This document shows positions 25,687-38,901 of a stretch of DNA of 51,322 nt, piece after piece. The translations under genes were made by a program, and so were the position numbers. The stretch's first letter is position 1; every line of letters starts with the position of its first letter. Source of the stretch: Nitrospiria bacterium (GTDB taxonomy: Bacteria; Nitrospirota; Nitrospiria; DASWJH01); assembly GCA_036397255.1 (NCBI GenBank), contig DASWJH010000011.1, positions 1-51,322 on the forward strand, in the 5' to 3' direction. Under the pieces are notes generated by a model, which worked only from the letters and a program-made list of their open reading frames with translations, was not told the origin of the DNA and ran no database searches.

Positions 25687-26022
25687 ATGAAAATTGGGGT
25701 TCTTCTTTTGACCAGTCCGGAGCATGAAAATACAATTACCGTCCAACGACTCTGCAAAGGATTTTTAACCCAGGGCCATTCGGTGGAAATTTTCTTCATG
25801 GAAGACGGCGTTTTTAACTGCATCCAAACCCGATCTCAACTTCGGTTAACCCCTCCTTGGGAGGTTCTAACGCAACATGGGGTTAAAATTTCCTTATGCA
25901 CTCAGACTTTTGAACAACGGGGACTAAAAGAGGAAAACCTTTTACAGGGGGCCCAGCTGACCAATCAACATCAATTGGCCCGGATGGTGGCATCATCGGA
26001 TCGGTTTCTTGTTTTTGGATAA
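25687..26022 (+). CDS. DsrE/TusD-family sulfur relay protein
   Basis: This is a 111-aa cytosolic DsrE/F-like protein. It shows the family start KIGVLLLTSPEHENTITVQR and a strand-helix pattern of a small Rossmann-like fold. A cysteine at about residue 72 (KISLCTQTFEQRGL) matches the position of the persulfide-carrying cysteine of TusD/DsrE. Known relatives form DsrEFH or TusBCD complexes that pass sulfane sulfur to TusE/DsrC, for tRNA 2-thiouridine or sulfur metabolism. CGGAG precedes the ATG. It is the first of three related genes, with the next starting 4 bp after its stop. I cannot tell the tRNA role from a dissimilatory one; no tusE/dsrC or dsrAB is in the window. Confidence 0.8.
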   Translation: MKIGVLLLTSPEHENTITVQRLCKGFLTQGHSVEIFFMEDGVFNCIQTRSQLRLTPPWEVLTQHGVKISLCTQTFEQRGLKEENLLQGAQLTNQHQLARMVASSDRFLVFG

Positions 26023-26026
26023 AAAT

Positions 26027-26371
26027 ATGAAAAAAGTGGTTGTTCTAATACGAAAGGGACCTTTTGAAAGGGTCCGGGCAAGTGAAACATGTCGAATGGC
26101 CTTAGGGCTTACCTTGGCCCACAATGAAGTCACACTTCTTTATTTGGAAAAGGGCGTTAAAAATCTCTTTCCGATAAAACCAAAGATCCTCCACCGCCCC
26201 TCCGCAGATGAATCCATGGCTTTATTTGAAGCATGCGGTATTAAACAGGTGGCGGATCAACCCTCCCTCGTGGAATGGGGACTGAATGAAAAAATCCAGG
26301 GAGTGGAAACAGTAGACCGGGAGACCACTTTGGCATTAATTGCATCCGCCGATGTTGTAATGCCTATGTAA
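26027..26371 (+). CDS. DsrF/TusC-family protein
   Basis: This 114-aa protein begins KKVVVLIRKGPFERVRASET, like DsrF/TusC, the structural partner of DsrE. The segment LTLAHNEVTLLYLEKGV corresponds to the second strand-helix unit of the family. The ATG at 26027 lies just after the first gene's stop, and a longer frame from 26009 would overlap that gene. It probably forms a heterohexamer with the products of the flanking genes. Only Cys residues outside the canonical active-site position are visible. Confidence 0.75.
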   Translation: MKKVVVLIRKGPFERVRASETCRMALGLTLAHNEVTLLYLEKGVKNLFPIKPKILHRPSADESMALFEACGIKQVADQPSLVEWGLNEKIQGVETVDRETTLALIASADVVMPM

Positions 26372-26720: not shown

Positions 26721-27062
26721 TTAAAGACTTTTCTCTGCGGCATCAATGTACGCGAAAAGGTGGGATGCTTCTTTTTCATTCGCGATTTCAAATTGAATTC
26801 CAACAGAAAAAACATTGGCCAAGGGAGCCACTCGTTTTACCCTACCCCTTACATTCTCCACCTCATTAACACCGTTCATTCCAAAAAAGTTTAGCTTAAC
26901 AATGACCTCATCGCCTTCATCCAACTTTTTTCGGGTCATCATACCAAGGCCAATCCTACTGATATTGGTTACATAACCCTCCAGATCGACATTTTTAGAA
27001 AGTGAGGTCACCTCCGCAACACAGGTAATAACAACCCGCTTTCCTTTTCTTCTTTCTTTCAT
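26721..27062 (-). CDS. PilZ-domain c-di-GMP-binding protein
   Basis: This 113-aa protein is essentially a single PilZ domain. The c-di-GMP-binding motifs are visible: the RxxxR-like start ERRKGKRV (residues 3-10) and NISRIGLG (D/NxSxxG) about 27 residues later, followed by the beta-barrel ending FSVGIQFE. PilZ proteins read out c-di-GMP, often in motility or surface polymers; the target cannot be inferred here. It lies 93 bp downstream of the unrecognised gene 27156-27611 on the same strand and probably shares its promoter. A GGDEF/EAL protein is encoded at 42-43.5 kb. Confidence 0.88.
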   Translation of the reverse strand: MKERRKGKRVVITCVAEVTSLSKNVDLEGYVTNISRIGLGMMTRKKLDEGDEVIVKLNFFGMNGVNEVENVRGRVKRVAPLANVFSVGIQFEIANEKEASHLFAYIDAAEKSL

Positions 27063-27896: not shown

Positions 27897-27925
27897 TTGC
27901 TTTTTTGGGCGGTTTATGTTATAAA
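27897..27925 (+). promoter_or_regulatory. Promoter of the arginine-lysine gene cluster
   Basis: TTGCTT (27897-27902) and TATAAA (27920-27925) are 17 bp apart. The predicted start near 27932 leaves a leader of about 40 nt to the TTG at 27974. This also argues that argD does not start at the upstream TTG at 27905. Confidence 0.55.
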
Positions 27926-27973
27926 TTGCCCCCTTATTTCTTAAAACAGTCTAAACCACATCAGGAGCTTTCT

Positions 27974-29176
27974 TTGCCAACGGAAGATATCATTGATGAT
28001 TCAAACCGCTATATTATGAATACCTACCGGCGGTTTCCCATTGTTTTGGTCAAGGGCCGTGGCACACGCCTTTTTGACACCACGGGAAAAGAATATTTGG
28101 ATTTTGTAAGTGGTGTGGCCGTCACCAATTTAGGGCACTGTTATCCCCAGGTCACCGTGGCTTTTCAAAAGCAAGCACAACGTTTGGGACATGTTTCAAA
28201 CCTTTATTACAGCAAACCCCAAACCCACCTGGCTAAAAAACTGGTCCAACATTCTTGCTTAGATAAAGTCTTTTTCTGCAACAGCGGGGCGGAGGCAAAC
28301 GAAGCCGCACTGAAACTTGCCCGTCGATACGCTCAGCTCCGGAATGAAACCGAAAAAAATGAAATTATTACTTTTGAGCACTCTTTTCATGGGAGGACCT
28401 TCGCAACCTTATCCGCAACCGGACAGGAAAAAGTCAAAAAAGGGTTTTACCCCATTTTTCCAGGATTTGTCCATGTACCCCTTAATGATATCGATGCCCT
28501 TGCCAAAGCCGTTCATTCAAAAACCCTTGCGGTGATGTTGGAGCCAATCCAAGGTGAGGGGGGAATCAATATCCCCAATGAGGGTTATCTTCAAAAGGTA
28601 AAACAGCTTTGTGAGGAAAACGGACTCCTTTTGATCTTTGATGAAATTCAAACGGGGATCGGGCGAACGGGAACCCTGTTTGCCTACGAACATTTCAATA
28701 TTTTCCCCGATATTCTAACCTTGGCAAAGGGATTAGGGGGTGGCCTTCCCATCGGAGCAATGCTCGCCCGTGAAGAAGTGGCCTCTGCCTTTGAGCCCGG
28801 CCAGCATGCCTCCACCTTTGGCGGAAATCCGGTGGTCTGCTCTTCTGCTTTGGCCACTCTGGATTCGATTTTGGAGGAGAGTTTTCTTTTGGAAAACTGC
28901 CGACGGATGGGAGAATACTTTATCAAAGGCTTAATGGAACTTCAGCGCCGATGTCCGGGAATTAAAGAAATTCGGGGAAAAGGTCTGCTGATTGGGATGG
29001 AATTAACCTTTGATGGGCAGGAGGTGGTACAGGATTGTTTGGAAGAGGGTTTTCTTATTAATTGTACCATGGAAAAAGTGCTTCGGTTTATGCCCCCCCT
29101 TATCATTACCATGGAAGAGATCGATCTTCTTCTGAACACCCTGGAGAAAATTTTAAAAAGGCGGGGTACGGTTTGA
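27974..29176 (+). CDS. argD: Acetylornithine aminotransferase
   Basis: This class III PLP aminotransferase (about 400 aa) converts N-acetylglutamate semialdehyde to N-acetylornithine. Visible elements are FCNSGAEANEAALKLARRYA (PLP phosphate site), the LIFDEIQTGIGRTG motif, and the Schiff-base lysine in LAKGLGGGLPIGAML. The TTG at 27974 was chosen because AGGAG lies 6 nt upstream and the promoter at 27897-27925 would exclude the longer frame from 27905. It is first in argD-argF-argG-argH. The same family can act as succinyl-DAP aminotransferase (DapC), but dapL in this cluster makes that unnecessary. Confidence 0.94.
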   Translation: MPTEDIIDDSNRYIMNTYRRFPIVLVKGRGTRLFDTTGKEYLDFVSGVAVTNLGHCYPQVTVAFQKQAQRLGHVSNLYYSKPQTHLAKKLVQHSCLDKVFFCNSGAEANEAALKLARRYAQLRNETEKNEIITFEHSFHGRTFATLSATGQEKVKKGFYPIFPGFVHVPLNDIDALAKAVHSKTLAVMLEPIQGEGGINIPNEGYLQKVKQLCEENGLLLIFDEIQTGIGRTGTLFAYEHFNIFPDILTLAKGLGGGLPIGAMLAREEVASAFEPGQHASTFGGNPVVCSSALATLDSILEESFLLENCRRMGEYFIKGLMELQRRCPGIKEIRGKGLLIGMELTFDGQEVVQDCLEEGFLINCTMEKVLRFMPPLIITMEEIDLLLNTLEKILKRRGTV

Positions 29177-30108
29177 ACACAAGACACCTACTAACAGTAC
29201 ATGACCTTTCCACGGAAGAGATACAAGACATTTTAAACCGGTCACAACAAATCAAGGAAAAGGCAGATCGGAAAAAACCTTATTTACCTCTGGCCGGCAA
29301 AACCATTGGGCTTTATTTTGAAAAATGGTCCACTCGGACACGAATCTCCTTCGAGGTTGGTGCATTTCAACTCGGGGGCCACTCCCTCTTTATTTCGACG
29401 GAGGAAATTCAGCTGAACCGGGGAGAAACCGTTGCCGACACAGCCAAAGTACTCTCCCGTTACTTGGACGGCATTGTGATACGAACTTACCATCAACGCC
29501 ATTTGGAAGAATGGGCCCGGGCGGCATCCATCCCGGTCATTAACGGTTTAACGGACCTACATCACCCCTGCCAAGCCATTTCGGATCTTTTTACGATTTT
29601 GGAAAAAAGGGGACGGCTTCAACAGTTAAAACTGGCCTATATCGGTGACGGCAATAATGTAGCCCATTCCCTGGTGGAGGGCGCCGTATTGGTGGGTATG
29701 AACATCAACCTGGCCTGCCCCAAAGGATATGAACCCAATGAAGGCATTTTGGAACGGGCTCAACAGGAAGCCAAACGAAAAAATGTCCGCATCGAACTAT
29801 TCAAAAACCCCAAAGAGGCGGTCCGAGAGGCGGACATTCTCTACACGGATGTTTGGACCAGTATGGGCCAGGAATCCGAACAGGACGAGCGCAAAAAAGT
29901 GTTCCAGGACTATTGCATTAACCGTGACCTCCTTGAAGCAACACAAAATAAAGAGGTCCTGGTGATGCACTGTCTTCCCGCACACCGCGGGGAGGAAATT
30001 ACGAATGAAGTCATGGAAGGTCCTTTCTCAATTATCTTGGACCAGGCGGAAAACCGCCTTCATGCTCAAAAAGCCATTCTCGATTTTTTTCTAGGAGGTC
30101 CCCACTAA
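29173..30108 (+). CDS. argF: Ornithine carbamoyltransferase
   Basis: This 311-aa cytosolic enzyme makes citrulline from ornithine and carbamoyl phosphate. The carbamoyl-phosphate motif KWSTRTRISFEVG (about residue 53), the HHPCQAISDLFTI segment and the ornithine-side motif VMHCLPAHRGEEI are intact. The start is the TTG overlapping the argD stop (TTGA), giving the usual family length; the open frame extends about 110 bp back into argD. It ends 5 bp before argG. Confidence 0.96.
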   Translation: MNTRHLLTVHDLSTEEIQDILNRSQQIKEKADRKKPYLPLAGKTIGLYFEKWSTRTRISFEVGAFQLGGHSLFISTEEIQLNRGETVADTAKVLSRYLDGIVIRTYHQRHLEEWARAASIPVINGLTDLHHPCQAISDLFTILEKRGRLQQLKLAYIGDGNNVAHSLVEGAVLVGMNINLACPKGYEPNEGILERAQQEAKRKNVRIELFKNPKEAVREADILYTDVWTSMGQESEQDERKKVFQDYCINRDLLEATQNKEVLVMHCLPAHRGEEITNEVMEGPFSIILDQAENRLHAQKAILDFFLGGPH

Positions 30109-30113
30109 TTTAG

Positions 30114-31337
30114 ATGGAAAGGAAAACGTCCTTATTTCAAAAAGTGATTCTCGCTTATTCGGGTGGGCTGGATACCTCTGTCATCATCCCTTGGTTGAAG
30201 GAAAAATATCAATGCGAGGTCATCGCCTACTGTGCGGATATCGGCCAAGCCGAGGAGCTTTCCTCTTTGGAGGAACGGGCCTTAAAGACAGGGGCCAGTC
30301 AGTTCCGATTGGAGGATTTAAAAAAAGAATTTGTGGTGGATTATATTTTTCCCATGCTCCGTGCCGCTGCCATTTACGAGGGGGGATACTTGTTGGGGAC
30401 ATCCATTGCCCGGCCCCTTATTGCGAAGAAGCAGATGGAACTGGCCCAACAAGAAGGGGCTGATGCCGTCGCCCATGGGGCCACCGGAAAAGGAAACGAT
30501 CAGATCCGCTTTGAGTTAACCTATTTATCGATGAACCCCCATATACAGATCATCGCCCCTTGGCGAGAATGGTCCTTTCAATCCCGTCAGGAATTGATCC
30601 AATATGCGAAGGACAAGCAGATTCCCATAACGGTAACACCGGAAAAACCCTATAGCATCGACCGCAACCTTTTCCACATCAGCTTTGAGGGAGGCGTTCT
30701 TGAGGATCCCTGGAATGAACCTCCCCGGGAAATGTTTCGTCTGACCACCGATCCCGAAGAAGCCAAAGATACTCCCGAAACGCTGGAGTTGGCCTTTGAA
30801 GGGGGAAACCCTAAAACCCTGAACGGAAAAGCCTTCCCCCCCGTGGCCTTACTGGAAACACTGAATCAATTGGCGGGAGAACATGGCATCGGTCGTGTAG
30901 ATCTGGTAGAAAATCGATATATAGGAATGAAATCCCGGGGTGTGTATGAAACACCGGGAGGGACCCTCCTTCACGAAGCCCGAAAGGCCTTGGAATCCAT
31001 TACCCTGGATCGGGAGGTGCTTCACCTCAGGGATTCTCTGGTCCCCCGTTATTCAGAACTGGTTTATTACGGATATTGGTTTTCACCGGAACGGGAACTG
31101 CTGCAAAAAACCATGGATGATATTCAAAAACAGGTCACCGGAACAGTACGAATGAAACTTTACAAGGGAAACTGTACGGTTTTGGGGCGAAAATCTCCGC
31201 GGTCTTTGTACCGTCAACAATTGGCCTCTTTTGATCAAGGACTCGGTTTTAATCCCCGGGATGCGGAGGGATTTATTCGGCTCAACGCCCTCCGGCTGAT
31301 CACCCAATGGGAAGAGAAAAAAGGGCGGAAGGATTGA
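30114..31337 (+). CDS. argG: Argininosuccinate synthase
   Basis: This 407-aa cytosolic enzyme condenses citrulline and aspartate with ATP. The N-type ATP pyrophosphatase P-loop [17 protein letters not shown] is at residues 12-28. [15 protein letters not shown] and the citrulline/aspartate-binding [17 protein letters not shown] and [18 protein letters not shown] segments are all present. Length is normal. It lies 5 bp after argF, clearly the same operon. Confidence 0.97.
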
Positions 31338-31353
31338 TTGGGAGTATGACGGG

Positions 31354-32793
31354 TTGAAAAAGAAAGCGAAAGGGAAGCTCTGGGGAGGACGTTTCCAGGG
31401 CAACCTGCATCCCGATGTGGAATCCTTTACGGCTTCTCTCTCCTTTGATATTCGGCTCTTTTCATACGACATACAAGGAAGTATCGCACACTGCAAAATG
31501 TTAGAACGGGTGGGAATTCTCACGGCAACTGAAACAAGGAAAATGGTCACCGGTCTCCTTCAAATCCAGGCAAAAATAGAAAAAGGAAAACAGCGTTTCC
31601 GAAAGGAAGATGAAGATATTCACATGGCCATCGAGCGTCTTCTCACCGAAAAAGTGGGAGCCATAGGTAAAAAACTTCACACGGGACGAAGCCGAAACGA
31701 CCAGGTGGTCTTGGACCTTCGGCTCTTTCTTCGATCCGAAATTAAAACCCTCTTGGAAGAAATCGGGAAACTTCAAAAAATTCTGGTCCGTCGTGCTGAG
31801 AAAGAAATCGATGCCCTTATGCCGGGATACACCCACCTCCAACGGGCCCAACCGGTGCGTTTTTCCCATCATCTGTTGGCCTATTTCGAAATGTTTGACC
31901 GGGATCGCCAACGGCTGGAGGATAGTTTGGAACGGGTGAATGTGATGCCCTTAGGCTCGGGGGCTTTGGCGGGAACCACTCTTCCCATTCGCCGGGAGGT
32001 GGTGGCGGAGCTTCTTCACTTTCCAAAAGTCACCGCCAATAGTCTGGACAGTGTGAGTGATCGGGATTTTTCACTGGAATTTTTAAGTGCCATGGCTATT
32101 TTAATGATGCACCTCTCGAGATTTAGTGAAGAACTGATTCTTTGGTCCAGTCAAGAATTTGGTTTTATAGAACTGCCGGATGCCTTTTGCACCGGAAGCA
32201 GCATGATGCCTCAAAAGAAAAACCCCGACGTCCCCGAGTTGATTCGGGGAAAAACGGGAAGAGTCTATGGACATTTGGTGACTTCCCTCACCTTCATGAA
32301 GGGTCTTCCCCTTTCTTATAACCGGGACCTTCAGGAAGACAAGGAACCCATTTTTGATACGGTGGACACCGTCAAAGCAGCCTTACGGCTCTACCAGCAG
32401 ATGATTGAGAAACTTAAAATCAACCGGGATCGCCTCGCCCAAGCCGCCGGAGACGAATTCCTATTGGCCACGGATCTGGCGGAATATTTGGTTTTGAAAG
32501 GGGTTCCTTTCCGGGACTCTCACGAGGTGATCGGAAAACTGGTTGGGTTCTGCCTAAAGTTTAATCGGACATTTTCTTCTCTGACGCTGAAAGAGTTTCA
32601 GGGTTTTTCAAAGGAATTTAAAATTGATGTATTTGATCGGTTGAATCCAACGCGTTCTGTGGAGACAAAGGAGGGAATAGGCCACCCTTCCCGGAAACGG
32701 GTTTTGCAACGGATCCGGGCCATTCAAAAACAGGCCTCGGATCTGCCCCCCCCAACTCCAAGAAAAAAAAAGACTGGAAGAGGGAAAAGGTGA
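31354..32793 (+). CDS. argH: Argininosuccinate lyase
   Basis: This 479-aa enzyme of the fumarase/aspartase superfamily releases arginine and fumarate. It shows LWGGRFQGNLHPDVESFTAS at the N terminus, HTGRSRNDQVV, the TGYTHLQ-like PGYTHLQRAQPVRFSHHL, and the superfamily signature GSSMMPQKKNPD. A basic tail (about 15 residues, ending KKKTGRGKR) extends beyond the usual end. The start is TTG with GGGAG 9 nt upstream, 16 bp after argG. Confidence 0.96.
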   Translation: MKKKAKGKLWGGRFQGNLHPDVESFTASLSFDIRLFSYDIQGSIAHCKMLERVGILTATETRKMVTGLLQIQAKIEKGKQRFRKEDEDIHMAIERLLTEKVGAIGKKLHTGRSRNDQVVLDLRLFLRSEIKTLLEEIGKLQKILVRRAEKEIDALMPGYTHLQRAQPVRFSHHLLAYFEMFDRDRQRLEDSLERVNVMPLGSGALAGTTLPIRREVVAELLHFPKVTANSLDSVSDRDFSLEFLSAMAILMMHLSRFSEELILWSSQEFGFIELPDAFCTGSSMMPQKKNPDVPELIRGKTGRVYGHLVTSLTFMKGLPLSYNRDLQEDKEPIFDTVDTVKAALRLYQQMIEKLKINRDRLAQAAGDEFLLATDLAEYLVLKGVPFRDSHEVIGKLVGFCLKFNRTFSSLTLKEFQGFSKEFKIDVFDRLNPTRSVETKEGIGHPSRKRVLQRIRAIQKQASDLPPPTPRKKKTGRGKR

Positions 32794-32809: not shown

Positions 32810-32965
32810 ATGAAAGGTTTTCTATGCCTCAAAAAAACCGGTGTTCTGTTTTGTTCGGTTTCCTTTTGCCTAACACTGTTATTGGAAGGGTGTGGCCGCA
32901 AAGGGGATCCCGTGGCACCAGATGAACCATTGCCCCAAAATCAGGCCAAAAGCTTTTTGGGATGA
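32810..32965 (+). CDS. LptM/LppL-like small lipoprotein
   Basis: This 51-aa reading frame is short and easy to miss. It has a basic start (MKGFLCLKKTG), a hydrophobic signal (VLFCSVSFCLTLLL) and a lipobox LLLEGC, with the cysteine at residue 28. After the cysteine comes GRKGDPVAPDE, matching the CGxKGxxxxP pattern of LptM (YifL/LppL), the lipoprotein that assists LptD maturation in E. coli. In proteobacteria lptM/lppL lies just upstream of lysA-dapF or dapF; here it lies 17 bp after argH and upstream of lysA-dapF, with the radical SAM gene between. The Shine-Dalgarno is weak. Homology by motif and context; moderate to good confidence. Confidence 0.8.
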   Translation: MKGFLCLKKTGVLFCSVSFCLTLLLEGCGRKGDPVAPDEPLPQNQAKSFLG

Positions 32966-33100: not shown

Positions 33101-35020
33101 ATGTCTACCGTACAACTTCAATCGACCCCTAGACGGAAACTCCTGTTATTGATTGATCCATACCCGGAGGAAAATCCCTACCGCATGGTGGATAAGGAAC
33201 AAAGGGCCATCTGGTTTCCGAAACTTTCCCTTCCCGTAATCGCTGGAAGAACACCCAAAACATGGGATATCCGGATTATGGATGAAAGCCGTACCCTGGT
33301 CAGGAAATCCTTTGTGGACACCATTATTCAGGAATGGGGACCGGAAAATATCCTGGTGGGAATTTCCACCCAAATGACCTGCTACACACCTCGTGCTTAT
33401 GAAATCTCCAGTTGGTTTCGCACCCGGGGGGTGAAGGTTTGTTTGGGAGGCACCCATGCAACCTATTGCACCGATGAAGCCCGCCAAAACGCTGATGTGG
33501 TGGTGCGCTTTGAGGCCGATGAAATTTGGCCTCTGGTCCTCCAGGATTTTGAAAACGGCACCCTTCAACCCGTTTATGAAATGACCTCCTATCCCACATT
33601 TGAAAAAGATTATCCTCATCCCCGAATTGATCTGCTTCCCCAGGGATGCTATATGACCAACCAATGTATTCAAACCACCCGGGGATGCCATTTTGAATGT
33701 GAGTTTTGCAGCGTTTCTCCTTTTAATGGAAAAAGCTCAAGGCGGCGTTCTGTCGATGATGTCATTGCTGAAATTCAACGGATCAAAGAATGGCGGAGGA
33801 ACGAGCTGGTGGAAAAAATGGTCCACGGCCCCATTTGGCACCGGATCGGGACCACCCTCAGGATTTTAACGGGTATTGAAGATGGGACCATTTTTGCTTT
33901 CGTGGATGACCTTCACAACTCCAACCGGGACTACTGTAAAAAACTTTGGACCGCATTAAAGGAACTCAATATTAAATGGGGTGCTCAATGCACCCTCTTT
34001 TTGGGCAACGAACCCGACATGGTCAAATTGGCCGCTGAAAGCGGATGCGTGGCCATGTTCGTGGGGATGGAATCGGTCAATACGGATGTCTTGTCTGAAA
34101 TGAACAAACCGTTCAACCAAGAAGGCCGGTATGAAGACCAGATTAAATGTTTCCATGATCACGGCATTATGGTTAACCCAGGAATTATTTTTGGTTCCGA
34201 TGCAGATGATGAGTCCGTGTTTGAAAACACGGTAGAATTTCTCATTAAATGCCGGGTGGAGCTAGCGTATATCAATGTTGCCACCCCCCTGCCCGGCACC
34301 GTTCTCTTCGATCGATTGAAAGCGGAAGGGAGGATCTTTGACTGGGACTGGTCCCATTACGATGGGAAACATGTGGTGTTTCATCCAAAGAGGATGACAC
34401 CCGAGGTGCTTCAAGAGGGATTTTTCTGGGCCAACCGACAATTTTTCTCACTACCCTCCATCGCAAAGCGGATTTCATCCACCAGTCAGCGGATTATTCC
34501 CCGGTGGGTTATGAATTGGAGGTTTAGGAACTTGGTCCGTCGAACCACCCCTGCGGCAAACCTTTCCCCTTTGAGTCAAACCATCCGGAAGCTCCGTGTC
34601 CAACTTCCTTCAGTGGATACTGGAAATTTTATCCCCAATGCTTTGGGGGCGGTGAAAAATTCCGTTCAGGAAACCTCAAATCAAATCGACCGTTTTTTGA
34701 ATATTAAAGTCAAAAAGGATGAGGGTTTAACCACATTAATGGTAGAGCTGGAAGGCACACTGGACCGCTTTAACGTCAAGGAAGTCAGAAATCGAGTCGT
34801 GGAAGCGGCAAAAAAAGCACATATGGATATTGTTATTAACTTTGAGCACTTAAAATATGCAACCCCTGAAGCACTCCAGAGCCTCCTGGATTGGACCCAT
34901 ATACAGCGTCTGGCACCCGCTGTTCGAATTAAATTTTTAAATCTCAAAGCGTCCTTTCAACAGGCGTTGACACAACCCCTGCCTATTGGAATTGAGATTG
35001 CCAAGAAAGAGCTAGGATAA
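33101..35020 (+). CDS. B12-binding-type radical SAM protein with C-terminal STAS-like domain
   Basis: This 639-aa protein, as I read it, has three parts. Residues 10-175 resemble the cobalamin-binding Rossmann domain seen in many radical SAM enzymes (LLLIDPYPEENPYRMVD; GVKVCLGGTHATYC), but no DxHxxG cobalamin-lower-ligand motif is evident. Residues 190-420 form the radical SAM core with the cluster cysteines C196-x3-C200-x2-C203 (TTRGCHFECEFC). The last 100 residues (from about 537) look like a STAS domain: TTLMVELEGTLDRFNVKEV, then DIVINFEHLKYATPEALQSL. AAGGAGA supports the ATG. The stop overlaps the lysA ATG (TAATG), so it is coupled to lysine synthesis, though no lysine enzyme of this type is known to me. 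Substrate unknown. Confidence 0.8.
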   Translation: MSTVQLQSTPRRKLLLLIDPYPEENPYRMVDKEQRAIWFPKLSLPVIAGRTPKTWDIRIMDESRTLVRKSFVDTIIQEWGPENILVGISTQMTCYTPRAYEISSWFRTRGVKVCLGGTHATYCTDEARQNADVVVRFEADEIWPLVLQDFENGTLQPVYEMTSYPTFEKDYPHPRIDLLPQGCYMTNQCIQTTRGCHFECEFCSVSPFNGKSSRRRSVDDVIAEIQRIKEWRRNELVEKMVHGPIWHRIGTTLRILTGIEDGTIFAFVDDLHNSNRDYCKKLWTALKELNIKWGAQCTLFLGNEPDMVKLAAESGCVAMFVGMESVNTDVLSEMNKPFNQEGRYEDQIKCFHDHGIMVNPGIIFGSDADDESVFENTVEFLIKCRVELAYINVATPLPGTVLFDRLKAEGRIFDWDWSHYDGKHVVFHPKRMTPEVLQEGFFWANRQFFSLPSIAKRISSTSQRIIPRWVMNWRFRNLVRRTTPAANLSPLSQTIRKLRVQLPSVDTGNFIPNALGAVKNSVQETSNQIDRFLNIKVKKDEGLTTLMVELEGTLDRFNVKEVRNRVVEAAKKAHMDIVINFEHLKYATPEALQSLLDWTHIQRLAPAVRIKFLNLKASFQQALTQPLPIGIEIAKKELG

Positions 35021-36276
35021 TGCATACATTTCATTACAAAGGAAAAGAACTCTATTGTGAGGCTCTCCCCATCCGGTCCATTGCTGAAAAGGTCGGAACA
35101 CCCTTTTACCTCTACAGTACAGAAACACTTCAGAAACATTTCCAGGTGTTAGACAGTGCCTTTCAGGGAGTTTCTCATCTAATTGCCTTCGCGGTAAAGG
35201 CCAATTCCAATTTGGCTGTCCTACGACTTTTCGGGCGGCAAGGGGGAGGGGCTGATATCGTTTCCTCAGGGGAACTGTTCAGGGCCAGGAAAGCAGGAAT
35301 CCCCTCTTCTCGGATCGTCTTTGCGGGGGTCGGCAAAACACGTCAGGAAATCGAGGATGCGATAAAAGCGGGAGTTCTTATGTTCAATGTGGAATCCCCT
35401 CAGGAATTGGTTCAGATCCATGAGGTGGCAAAGGCAGAAGGCAAAAAGGCCCCGGTGGCCCTCCGGGTCAATCCCAACATTAATCCCAAAACCCACCCTT
35501 ATATCTCCACAGGGTTAAAGAAAAACAAATTTGGTATTGCCATTGATCAGGCTGTGGAAGAGTATCGGTTGGCAAAGCGCCTGGACCATTTGGACATCGT
35601 GGGGGTGCATTGTCATATCGGGTCCCAATTGACCGAAGTTCAACCCTTTGTCGACGCCCTTAAAAAAGTTCTTAAACTGGTTACCCAACTTAAAAAAGAA
35701 GGAATTCCTATACAGTATTTGGATATGGGTGGGGGTTTAGGCATTACCTACCAAGGGGAAACCCCGCCTAAACCCAAGGAGTTGGCCAAGGCGATTCTTC
35801 CCTTGTTGAAAGGGGAACCCTACACCCTGATTCTTGAACCAGGAAGGGTTCTAGTCGGAAACGCCGGCATACTGGTTACCAAAGTCCTTTACTTAAAAGA
35901 AAGTCCAAACAAGCGATTCGCAATAGTGGATGCCGCCATGAACGACCTGCTCCGTCCGACCCTGTATGAGGCCTACCATGAAATTCTTCCGGTGGTCAAA
36001 ACCCGAATGAAACCCATAACCGTTGATGTGGTCGGTCCCATCTGTGAAACTGGGGATTTCCTGGCAAAAAACCGGAAAATCAATGCTTACCGGCCAGGAG
36101 ATTTACTGGCGGTCATGTCTGCCGGGGCCTATGGGTTTACGATGTCTTCCAACTACAATGCCAGACCCCGGGTGGCCGAGGTCCTGGTCAATGGGGAACA
36201 GTTTCATGTCATTCGGCAACGGGAAACCGTTGAGGATCTAATCAGGGGAGAGGTCATTCCCGACTTCTTAAAATAA
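35020..36276 (+). CDS. lysA: Diaminopimelate decarboxylase
   Basis: This 418-aa fold-III PLP enzyme decarboxylates meso-DAP to L-lysine. The PLP lysine is in IAFAVKANSN (about residue 58). HCHIGSQLTEV, the glycine-rich LDMGGGLGITY, LEPGRVLVGNAGIL and the substrate-side GPICETGDFLA motifs are intact. Its ATG overlaps the stop of the radical SAM gene. It competes with MurE for meso-DAP and so sits at the branch between lysine and peptidoglycan. Confidence 0.97.
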   Translation: MHTFHYKGKELYCEALPIRSIAEKVGTPFYLYSTETLQKHFQVLDSAFQGVSHLIAFAVKANSNLAVLRLFGRQGGGADIVSSGELFRARKAGIPSSRIVFAGVGKTRQEIEDAIKAGVLMFNVESPQELVQIHEVAKAEGKKAPVALRVNPNINPKTHPYISTGLKKNKFGIAIDQAVEEYRLAKRLDHLDIVGVHCHIGSQLTEVQPFVDALKKVLKLVTQLKKEGIPIQYLDMGGGLGITYQGETPPKPKELAKAILPLLKGEPYTLILEPGRVLVGNAGILVTKVLYLKESPNKRFAIVDAAMNDLLRPTLYEAYHEILPVVKTRMKPITVDVVGPICETGDFLAKNRKINAYRPGDLLAVMSAGAYGFTMSSNYNARPRVAEVLVNGEQFHVIRQRETVEDLIRGEVIPDFLK

Positions 36277-36307: not shown

Positions 36308-37144
36308 ATGACGCCAACGGAACAAAAGATTCCTTTCACTAAAATGAGTGGGAGCGGGAACGATTTTATCATCATCGATAACCGCAAAAAAATCGCCCCG
36401 GAAAAAAACATCCAAGAATTTGTCACAAAAATTTGCCAGCGTCGGGTTTCAGTAGGAGCAGACGGGGTCATTTTCATTGAGCCTTCCGAACAGGCACACT
36501 TTCGATGGCGGTATTACAATTCTGATGGAGGAGAGGTGGAAATGTGCGGTAACGGAAGCCGGTGTATTGCCCGATTTGCCCACCTGCATGGAATTGCCCC
36601 TGCGAAGATGTCCTTTGAAACATTGGCGGGAATCATTCAGGCAGAAGTCAAAGGTCGTGAGGTAAAGGTCCAACTCACGGAACCCAAAGATCTCTCTCTT
36701 CACCTCATGATTCCCCTTCAATCTGGGGAAAGGGAGGCCTATTTTTTAAACACGGGAGTCCCCCACGCGGTTTATTTTGTGAAGGATCCCAATACGGTGG
36801 ATGTGGAGGGACTAGGTCGGGAAACACGCTTTCATCCGCTGTTTCAACCCTCGGGAACCAACGCCAATTTTGTGAGCCTGGAAGACCCTCACCATATGGT
36901 AATTCGAACCTATGAACGGGGGGTGGAGGGAGAAACCCTGGCCTGCGGAACCGGGGCGGTAGCCTCCGCCTTGATCTCCGGAGCACTGGGGAAGACCACA
37001 TCCCCAGTGGAACTCACTACCCGGGGAAGAGAAATTTTAAAGGTGTATTTTCAATGGAATGGAAAACGGTTTTCCAACGTTTTTCTTGAAGGAAACACAC
37101 ACCTGATTTATTCAGGAGAAATCGGGGAAGAGGCCTGGAGATGA
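36308..37144 (+). CDS. dapF: Diaminopimelate epimerase
   Basis: This 278-aa PLP-independent epimerase converts LL-DAP to meso-DAP with a two-cysteine mechanism. Both catalytic cysteines are present: MCGNGSRCIARF (about residue 79) and ETLACGTGAVASAL (about residue 218). The N-terminal FTKMSGSGNDFIIID is typical. The dapA ATG overlaps its stop codon (ATGA). Confidence 0.97.
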   Translation: MTPTEQKIPFTKMSGSGNDFIIIDNRKKIAPEKNIQEFVTKICQRRVSVGADGVIFIEPSEQAHFRWRYYNSDGGEVEMCGNGSRCIARFAHLHGIAPAKMSFETLAGIIQAEVKGREVKVQLTEPKDLSLHLMIPLQSGEREAYFLNTGVPHAVYFVKDPNTVDVEGLGRETRFHPLFQPSGTNANFVSLEDPHHMVIRTYERGVEGETLACGTGAVASALISGALGKTTSPVELTTRGREILKVYFQWNGKRFSNVFLEGNTHLIYSGEIGEEAWR

Positions 37145-38031
37145 CAAAGAACAAGGCAACCCTTCAAGGGTCAATGGTCGCCATCATTACGCCATTTAAA
37201 AATAACCGTTTGGATGAGGAAGCTTTTAGTCAACTGATAGAAAACCAGATCCGAAACGGAACCGACGCCATTGTTCCCTGTGGCACGACGGGAGAATCGG
37301 CAACACTTAGCCATGAGGAACACAAACGGGTAGTGGAGTTATGCGTCGAAGTGGTCGCCAACCGTGCATCCGTTATCGCAGGGTCTGGATCCAACTCCAC
37401 GGAAGAAGCCATCCTGCTGACCCAGCATGCACAAAAAGCCAAAGCCTCTGCCGCCCTTTTGATTTCACCCTACTATAACAAGCCCACTCAAGAAGGGCTC
37501 TACCGCCATTTCAAAGAGATTGCGGACCGCGTGGACATCCCCCTTGTCATTTATAACATTCCTGGAAGGACCAGCATCAATGTTCTTCCCAAAACCCTGG
37601 CACGGTTGTGTACCCATCCCAATATTGTTGCAGTCAAAGAATCCAGCGGTTCACTCCAGCAGATTTCAGAGATCATTCATTTCTGTGGAGACCATTTAGA
37701 TATTCTTTCAGGTGATGACATTCTGACGCTCCCCATTATGGCCATTGGAGGAAAAGGGGTCATTTCCGTTGTTGCCAATCTGGTACCAGGGGAAGTCTCG
37801 GCCCTGGTTCATGCCATGGCCGATGGAAAGGTGGAGAAAGCCCGGGCCATTCATCAAAAACTTTTTCCTCTGACCGAAGCCCTATTTCTGGAAACCAATC
37901 CGATTCCGGTTAAAACAGCTCTTTCTTTCATGGACCGCTGCACGGATGAAATGCGTCTTCCCCTCTGCCCCATGTCTTCGGAAAACCAAAACCGTTTAAA
38001 AAGCGTAATGAAAAATTATGGCCTTCTCTAA
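37141..38031 (+). CDS. dapA: 4-hydroxy-tetrahydrodipicolinate synthase
   Basis: This 296-aa TIM-barrel aldolase condenses pyruvate with aspartate semialdehyde. Schiff-base lysine in IVAVKESSGSL (about residue 165), catalytic Thr pair in CGTTGESATLSHEEH, the tyrosine in LLISPYYNKPTQEG, and the NIPGRTSIN segment are visible. The start MTKNKATLQGSMVAIITPF matches the family. It is coupled to dapF by a four-base overlap. Confidence 0.97.
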   Translation: MTKNKATLQGSMVAIITPFKNNRLDEEAFSQLIENQIRNGTDAIVPCGTTGESATLSHEEHKRVVELCVEVVANRASVIAGSGSNSTEEAILLTQHAQKAKASAALLISPYYNKPTQEGLYRHFKEIADRVDIPLVIYNIPGRTSINVLPKTLARLCTHPNIVAVKESSGSLQQISEIIHFCGDHLDILSGDDILTLPIMAIGGKGVISVVANLVPGEVSALVHAMADGKVEKARAIHQKLFPLTEALFLETNPIPVKTALSFMDRCTDEMRLPLCPMSSENQNRLKSVMKNYGLL

Positions 38032-38091
38032 TCCTCTTCAAAGAAGTTCTCTTTTCTACCTGTATGGTGTTTCGCATCGGGGGGGATTTCA

Positions 38092-38901
38092 TTGGCCAAG
38101 GTGACGATCTACGGTGCTGCAGGAAAAATGGGCCAGCGGCTCATGAGACTGGCTTGTGAGACCAAAGGAATTCAGCTTGTAGGGGCCGTGGAGCATTCAG
38201 GCCATCCCCTTTTGGGACAAGATGTCGGCCAGCTGATCGGAGCAAAACAAACGGGCATCACACTAACCGCCAATTTGACCGAGGCATTAAATAAAGCCGA
38301 GGTCTTAATTGATTTCTCGACAACTGAAGCCACATTGAATTCCCTTCAAACGGCTTCTTTTTTGAAAAAACCCATGGTCATCGGAACAACTGGATTTACA
38401 GAAAAAGAGGTCAACCGCATCAAAAATTTTTCCAAAACCATTCCCTGTGTCATGGCCCCCAACATGAGCGTTGGCGTCAATGTTTTGTTTAAATTATTGG
38501 AAGAGGTGGTCCCCATTCTAGGAGAGGACTACGACATTGAAATAATCGAGGCCCATCACCGCCACAAAAAAGATGCCCCCAGTGGGACCGCAATGAAAAT
38601 GGCCCAAATCGTCGCCAAGGCACTCCGCCGGGATTTAAATGAAGTGGCCCGGTACAGCCGACATGGTTTGATCGGTGAACGCAAAGAGAAAGAAATCGGC
38701 ATTCAAACCATCCGCGCAGGGGAAATTGTGGGAGAACATACCGTTTTGTTTGCAGGCCCGGGTGAAACCCTTGAAATCAAACACCAGGCCTTCAATCGAG
38801 ACAATTTTGCTCGCGGCGCTCTGGAAGCGGCCAGATGGATTGTGGGAAAACCTCCTGGTCATTTTGACATGCTGGATGTCTTAGGCTTTAGGGATCAATG
38901 A
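38092..38901 (+). CDS. dapB: 4-hydroxy-tetrahydrodipicolinate reductase
   Basis: This 269-aa NAD(P)H-dependent reductase forms tetrahydrodipicolinate. N-terminal Rossmann motif VTIYGAAGKMGQRLM, the DFSTTEATLN segment, and the signature IEAHHRHKKDAPSGTA with the catalytic histidines and lysine are intact. It starts with TTG at 38092 behind a G-run (GGGGGG) about 6 nt upstream. It overlaps the next gene by four bases. Confidence 0.96.
   Translation: MAKVTIYGAAGKMGQRLMRLACETKGIQLVGAVEHSGHPLLGQDVGQLIGAKQTGITLTANLTEALNKAEVLIDFSTTEATLNSLQTASFLKKPMVIGTTGFTEKEVNRIKNFSKTIPCVMAPNMSVGVNVLFKLLEEVVPILGEDYDIEIIEAHHRHKKDAPSGTAMKMAQIVAKALRRDLNEVARYSRHGLIGERKEKEIGIQTIRAGEIVGEHTVLFAGPGETLEIKHQAFNRDNFARGALEAARWIVGKPPGHFDMLDVLGFRDQ

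Follow-up and report, generated by a model that had tools for sequence, protein, structure and literature searches.

Sigma-factor switches, stressosomes and anion transporters are the settings in which STAS modules are known, and the question raised by a locus of a Nitrospiria bacterium (contig DASWJH010000011.1) is what such a domain is doing at the end of a radical SAM enzyme whose gene lies within an arginine/lysine cluster. The window, meaning the whole stretch of DNA analysed, comprises 51,322 nucleotides. From its open reading frame, domain profiles and homologues, the gene in question (33101–35020, forward strand) was identified as encoding a 639-residue fusion of a B12-type radical SAM enzyme with a STAS domain, and its ATG start codon has a good ribosome-binding site (AGGAG) approximately 8 nt upstream. 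No description of a radical SAM–STAS fusion was found in the searchable open-access literature. The initial annotation had read the domain order by eye as B12-type, radical SAM and STAS, and this order is borne out by domain profiles, by a profile of the relatives and by the predicted fold.

The radical SAM core (residues 190–381; 33668–34243, forward strand) was recognised by PF04055 with 43.2 bits against a cut-off of 29.5 (E 6e-11), which places the protein in the superfamily. Its CxxxCxxC motif (33686–33709, forward strand) is present as first noted, with C196, C200 and C203 invariant across the 46 sequences aligned. Two more cysteines, C189 (33665–33667) and C316 (34046–34048), are also invariant. 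An insertion of approximately 30 residues in the core (residues 230–260; 33788–33880, forward strand), which splits matches into 15–229 and 261–638, was found in members from Nitrospiria only and is missing in homologues outside this class. The assignment of an N-terminal, Rossmann-like domain of B12-binding type (approximately residues 14–180; 33140–33640, forward strand) is based on a weak match to PF02310 (24.8 bits, cut-off 32.1, E 2e-5), on fold matching and on conservation, including an invariant GGxHx[ST] stretch (G116, G117, H119). The best fold match of this domain was AprD4, with further matches to MgmA and the cobalamin-dependent TsrM and OxsB; the full-length model, of low confidence at the Fe–S loop (residues 195–213) and the linker (493–530), matched these four as well as MiaB. 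The best NCBIfam matches were HpnJ, PhpK and BchE, with HpnR and the ladderane-type lipid family TIGR04072 also among the best, all of them far under their cut-offs (HpnJ, TIGR03471, gave 74 bits where the equivalog cut-off is 577.6).

The fold of the N-terminal domain suggests that the fusion enzyme may use cobalamin. Given its resemblance to HpnJ and BchE, it might catalyse a reaction other than methylation. CobQ, taken as a marker of B12 synthesis, was detected in 28 of the 45 genomes carrying the fusion and its presence does not track the gene; approximately 17 of the 45, some being incomplete genomes, had no match near the cut-off, and cobalamin dependence in these would require salvage.

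The C-terminal domain (approximately residues 532–624; 34694–34972, forward strand) is a predicted STAS domain, although the single sequence stays under the Pfam cut-offs. In the window protein, residues 535–600 matched STAS_2 with an E value of 0.004 and STAS with 0.01, both under cut-offs, and the isolated domain reached 19.2 bits where 22.6 are needed. As this single sequence is borderline, its relatives were used as the test. Among homologous C-termini, PF01740 matched 24 of 24 and PF13466 matched 22 of 24 (E ≤ 1), with best E values of 1.4e-5 and 5.8e-6, respectively, and a search of the PDB with the domain profile ranked SpoIIAA first (E 0.0066). Modelled with AlphaFold2 (core pLDDT approximately 72–85), the domain shows the STAS-like order beta-beta-alpha-beta-beta-alpha-alpha-beta-alpha, and Foldseek placed STAS proteins on top of its matches (TM1442 at 3e-5, SpoIIAA and RsbV; probability 1.0, TMt approximately 0.4–0.7). 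The profile of the relatives and the predicted fold both bear out the C-terminal STAS reading.

The fusion was found in 45 of 296 Nitrospirota genomes, 30 of them in Nitrospiria and 15 in three families of the phylum outside this class (f13, f19 and f37); in the large genera g2 and g3 it is missing from most genomes. When the same 296 genomes were searched with a profile of the STAS domain only, this subtype was found on this enzyme only, plus one fragment in genome G212. A collection scan, the reach of which is close relatives only, gave 32 homologous loci, nearly all labelled Nitrospirota (two are labelled Nitrospinota/Nitrospinaceae) and all having the C-terminal extension. Plasmid relatives covered at most approximately 74% of the query and ended before the STAS part among the matches listed. 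The initial annotation had held that close homologues lacking the extension and lying elsewhere would speak against it; the full-length homologues are all extended and nearly all follow argH, including lineages at approximately 39–44% identity. One genome, G127, has a second copy (L067; G127:C1:355996-357804) outside the arginine/lysine cluster, between two stomatin/SPFH-like genes and with an in-frame TAG close to its start.

Nitrospirota also encode STAS-less paralogues of approximately 420–510 residues (e.g., L039:2926-4197 and L047–L049), which share the B12-type and radical SAM core at approximately 33–41% identity but have no STAS domain. In a tree of the enzyme part, the STAS-bearing proteins group together with a support of 0.99, and all STAS-less paralogues fall outside this clade except L050/L051, which sit inside it on a long branch and could represent either loss of the STAS domain or an artefact. 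The neighbourhoods of the STAS-less paralogues gave no consistent functional clue. In family f13 such a paralogue lies directly upstream of argD (L039:2926-4197, L038:8932-10203), so that argDFGH has a related radical SAM gene on each side, and in family f14 (L048, L049, L054) related genes for B12-type radical SAM proteins lie next to each other in groups of three to four.

All genes of the cluster lie on the forward strand of the window. By synteny, argD, argF and argG (27905–31337) form the upstream part and dapF, dapA and dapB (36308–38901) the downstream part, with argH (31354–32793, identified by sequence and synteny) as the conserved upstream neighbour. A small LptM-like lipoprotein (CGRKGDPVAP; 32810–32965) is encoded between argH and the fusion, its match to PF13627 being under the cut-off (E 0.003, 17.8 of the 27.3 bits needed). 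The stop codon of the fusion (TAA, 35018–35020) shares 1 nt with the ATG of lysA (35020–36276) as TAATG, and both neighbours and this overlap, as originally described, agree with the ORF coordinates. Elsewhere in the window there are two tandem DsrE-family genes (25687–26371) with a PilZ-domain gene nearby on the opposite strand (26721–27062). No RNA regulatory element scored above gathering thresholds in the whole window, and promoter-like sites were no commoner than in shuffled sequence.

The same layout extends well beyond this genome, the order in Nitrospiria and family f19 being argD-F-G-H-[fusion]-lysA-(dapF)-dapA-dapB. In Nitrospiria the gene is strongly coupled to lysA, as claimed, and of 53 loci (some representing the same genome twice) 34 have reading frames that overlap by 8 nt. 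The coupling does not extend to families f13 and f37, where argH and the LptM-like gene again precede the fusion but lysA does not follow it. What is shared most widely is therefore the link to argH and the LptM-like gene, not the one to lysA. The arrangement suggests that the fusion gene is co-expressed with the cluster. In family f37 (L045, L046) the genes after the fusion are, as named from their sequences, dnaA-dnaN-gyrB-gyrA, so that the arginine cluster abuts replication-initiation genes. At five loci (L035, L037, L039, L045 and L046) the LptM-like lipoprotein between argH and the fusion (CGRKGDP) carries added fibronectin type III domains.

An ancestor of several Nitrospirota lineages probably had the gene after argH and the LptM-like lipoprotein gene, from where it would have been co-inherited with the arginine/lysine cluster and, in Nitrospiria, translationally linked to lysA. 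Pairwise distances of the fusion correlate with those of argH (r 0.85) and dapA (r 0.88), which is about the correlation seen between several of the operon genes, and more weakly with those of argG and lysA. Many Nitrospira-type genomes appear to have lost the gene. Most of the 30 genomes chosen as lacking it keep argH beside lysA, approximately 140–440 bp apart, and in G212 (L111; G212:C22, 8175–8309) fragments matching residues 515–546 and 600–615 of the fusion remain between these two genes, indicating loss in place at least once. Loss of the gene has probably been repeated.

The reading that we favour, by a modest degree, is that of a functional B12-domain radical SAM enzyme whose STAS domain serves docking, oligomerisation or allostery and is not a phosphorylation switch. 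The core would cleave SAM at a [4Fe-4S] cluster held by C196, C200 and C203, and the resulting 5'-deoxyadenosyl radical would then modify a substrate. The STAS domain would most likely act constitutively in docking or oligomerisation, or bind a small ligand as an allosteric domain, and would position the core for a partner or a substrate, with no phosphorylation involved. It is also conceivable, though with less confidence, that these proteins form a Nitrospirota radical SAM family with a non-phosphorylatable STAS domain for docking or ligand sensing that performs an undescribed modification, perhaps of an envelope lipid or of an arginine/lysine-derived product.

As to the substrate, it is possible, if tentative, that the enzyme modifies a lipid or another envelope component, the STAS domain and basic linker docking it to the membrane. 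The core is similar to enzymes whose substrates are hydrophobic, given that HpnJ, BchE, HpnR and TIGR04072 are among its best matches, albeit all far under cut-offs, and the LptM-like neighbour, present in families f1, f4, f7, f8, f13, f19 and f37, would fit such a role. This gene, however, also sits between argH and lysA at four loci without the enzyme (L090, L091, L098 and L101). A hopanoid substrate is contradicted by the distribution of squalene-hopene cyclase, which does not co-occur with the fusion gene: the cyclase is absent from the genomes of f7 and from genome G181 of f8, which have the fusion, and present in many Nitrospira-type genomes, which do not.

A substrate from the arginine/lysine pathway, either an intermediate or a derived product, would explain why the gene is retained in the cluster, and both the gene order in Nitrospiria and f19 and the overlap with lysA point in this direction. 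It is nonetheless an unlikely explanation, as most Nitrospiria keep the cluster without the fusion gene, so that the enzyme is probably not needed for arginine or lysine synthesis. Neither the absence of lysA downstream in f13 and f37 nor the location of the second G127 copy, albeit one with an in-frame TAG, fits it well.

A little less likely still is a partner-switching role, in which the STAS domain would be regulated by phosphorylation and would link the radical SAM enzyme with a kinase/phosphatase circuit. Both fold and profile are nearest to STAS domains of the SpoIIAA/RsbV type, but the phosphorylatable serine that SpoIIAA has at the start of helix 2 is not conserved. In a gap-free alignment the residue equivalent to SpoIIAA Ser58 is E590 (codon 34868–34870, forward strand), a position occupied by serine in one of 46 sequences and by alanine, lysine, glutamate, glycine or others elsewhere, while the Ser57 equivalent is proline in all 46. 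Beside the classical site, T588 is conserved in 44 of 46 (alanine replaces it in L001 and L002, two close relatives) and could be phosphorylated by an unrecognised kinase, but it aligns to Asp56 of SpoIIAA. Searches of the genome, which is 97.5% complete, matched no second STAS protein and no stand-alone, RsbW/SpoIIAB-like GHKL anti-sigma kinase as a cognate partner; four HATPase_c_2 matches under the cut-off read as histidine kinases by sequence. At this completeness a partner may have been missed. Partner-switch regulation was rejected on the variable phosphosite and the negative search for partners, which together make docking or ligand binding the better inference. Of the original proposal of a regulated modification enzyme of unknown substrate, the enzyme survives and the regulation, drawn by analogy with partner switching, is unsupported.

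A chance or decaying fusion without function, to which the frequent absence of the gene and the single remnant might point, is very improbable, because dN/dS is well below 1 in both parts (approximately 0.04–0.26 in nine close pairs, the STAS part being somewhat less constrained than the enzyme part in most), a sign of purifying selection, and the fusion is conserved across lineages and was never seen split. The fusion is real, ancient and conserved.

Nitrite, ammonia and manganese oxidisers are all found among the Nitrospirota, and a radical SAM enzyme long tied to their amino-acid operon represents an uncharacterised part of their biochemistry. The conserved joining of STAS to radical SAM suggests that this fold was co-opted to direct radical chemistry, and relatives that have the gene can be set against those that lack it as a natural comparison for the discovery of its product.

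The nearest described relatives of the fusion enzyme are HpnJ, PhpK and BchE among the protein families and AprD4 and MgmA among the solved structures, and in these a Rossmann-type B12 domain at the N-terminus precedes the radical SAM core, the arrangement predicted for the fusion. The fusion differs from this group in scoring far under every family cut-off and, in Nitrospiria, in the insertion within the core; no STAS domain is known from any of these families. With STAS domains of the SpoIIAA/RsbV type (PF01740, PF13466), its top matches by Foldseek and profile, the C-terminal domain shares a motif, its EGxLD...NFExL resembling the GxLD...N/DLxxL of SpoIIAA, but here the domain is fused to a radical SAM enzyme, it has no phosphosite serine, and the canonical last strand and helix are not evident in its model. 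MlaB and the STAS domains of SulP/SLC26 share the common fold but were weaker matches, and the fusion protein contains no transporter.
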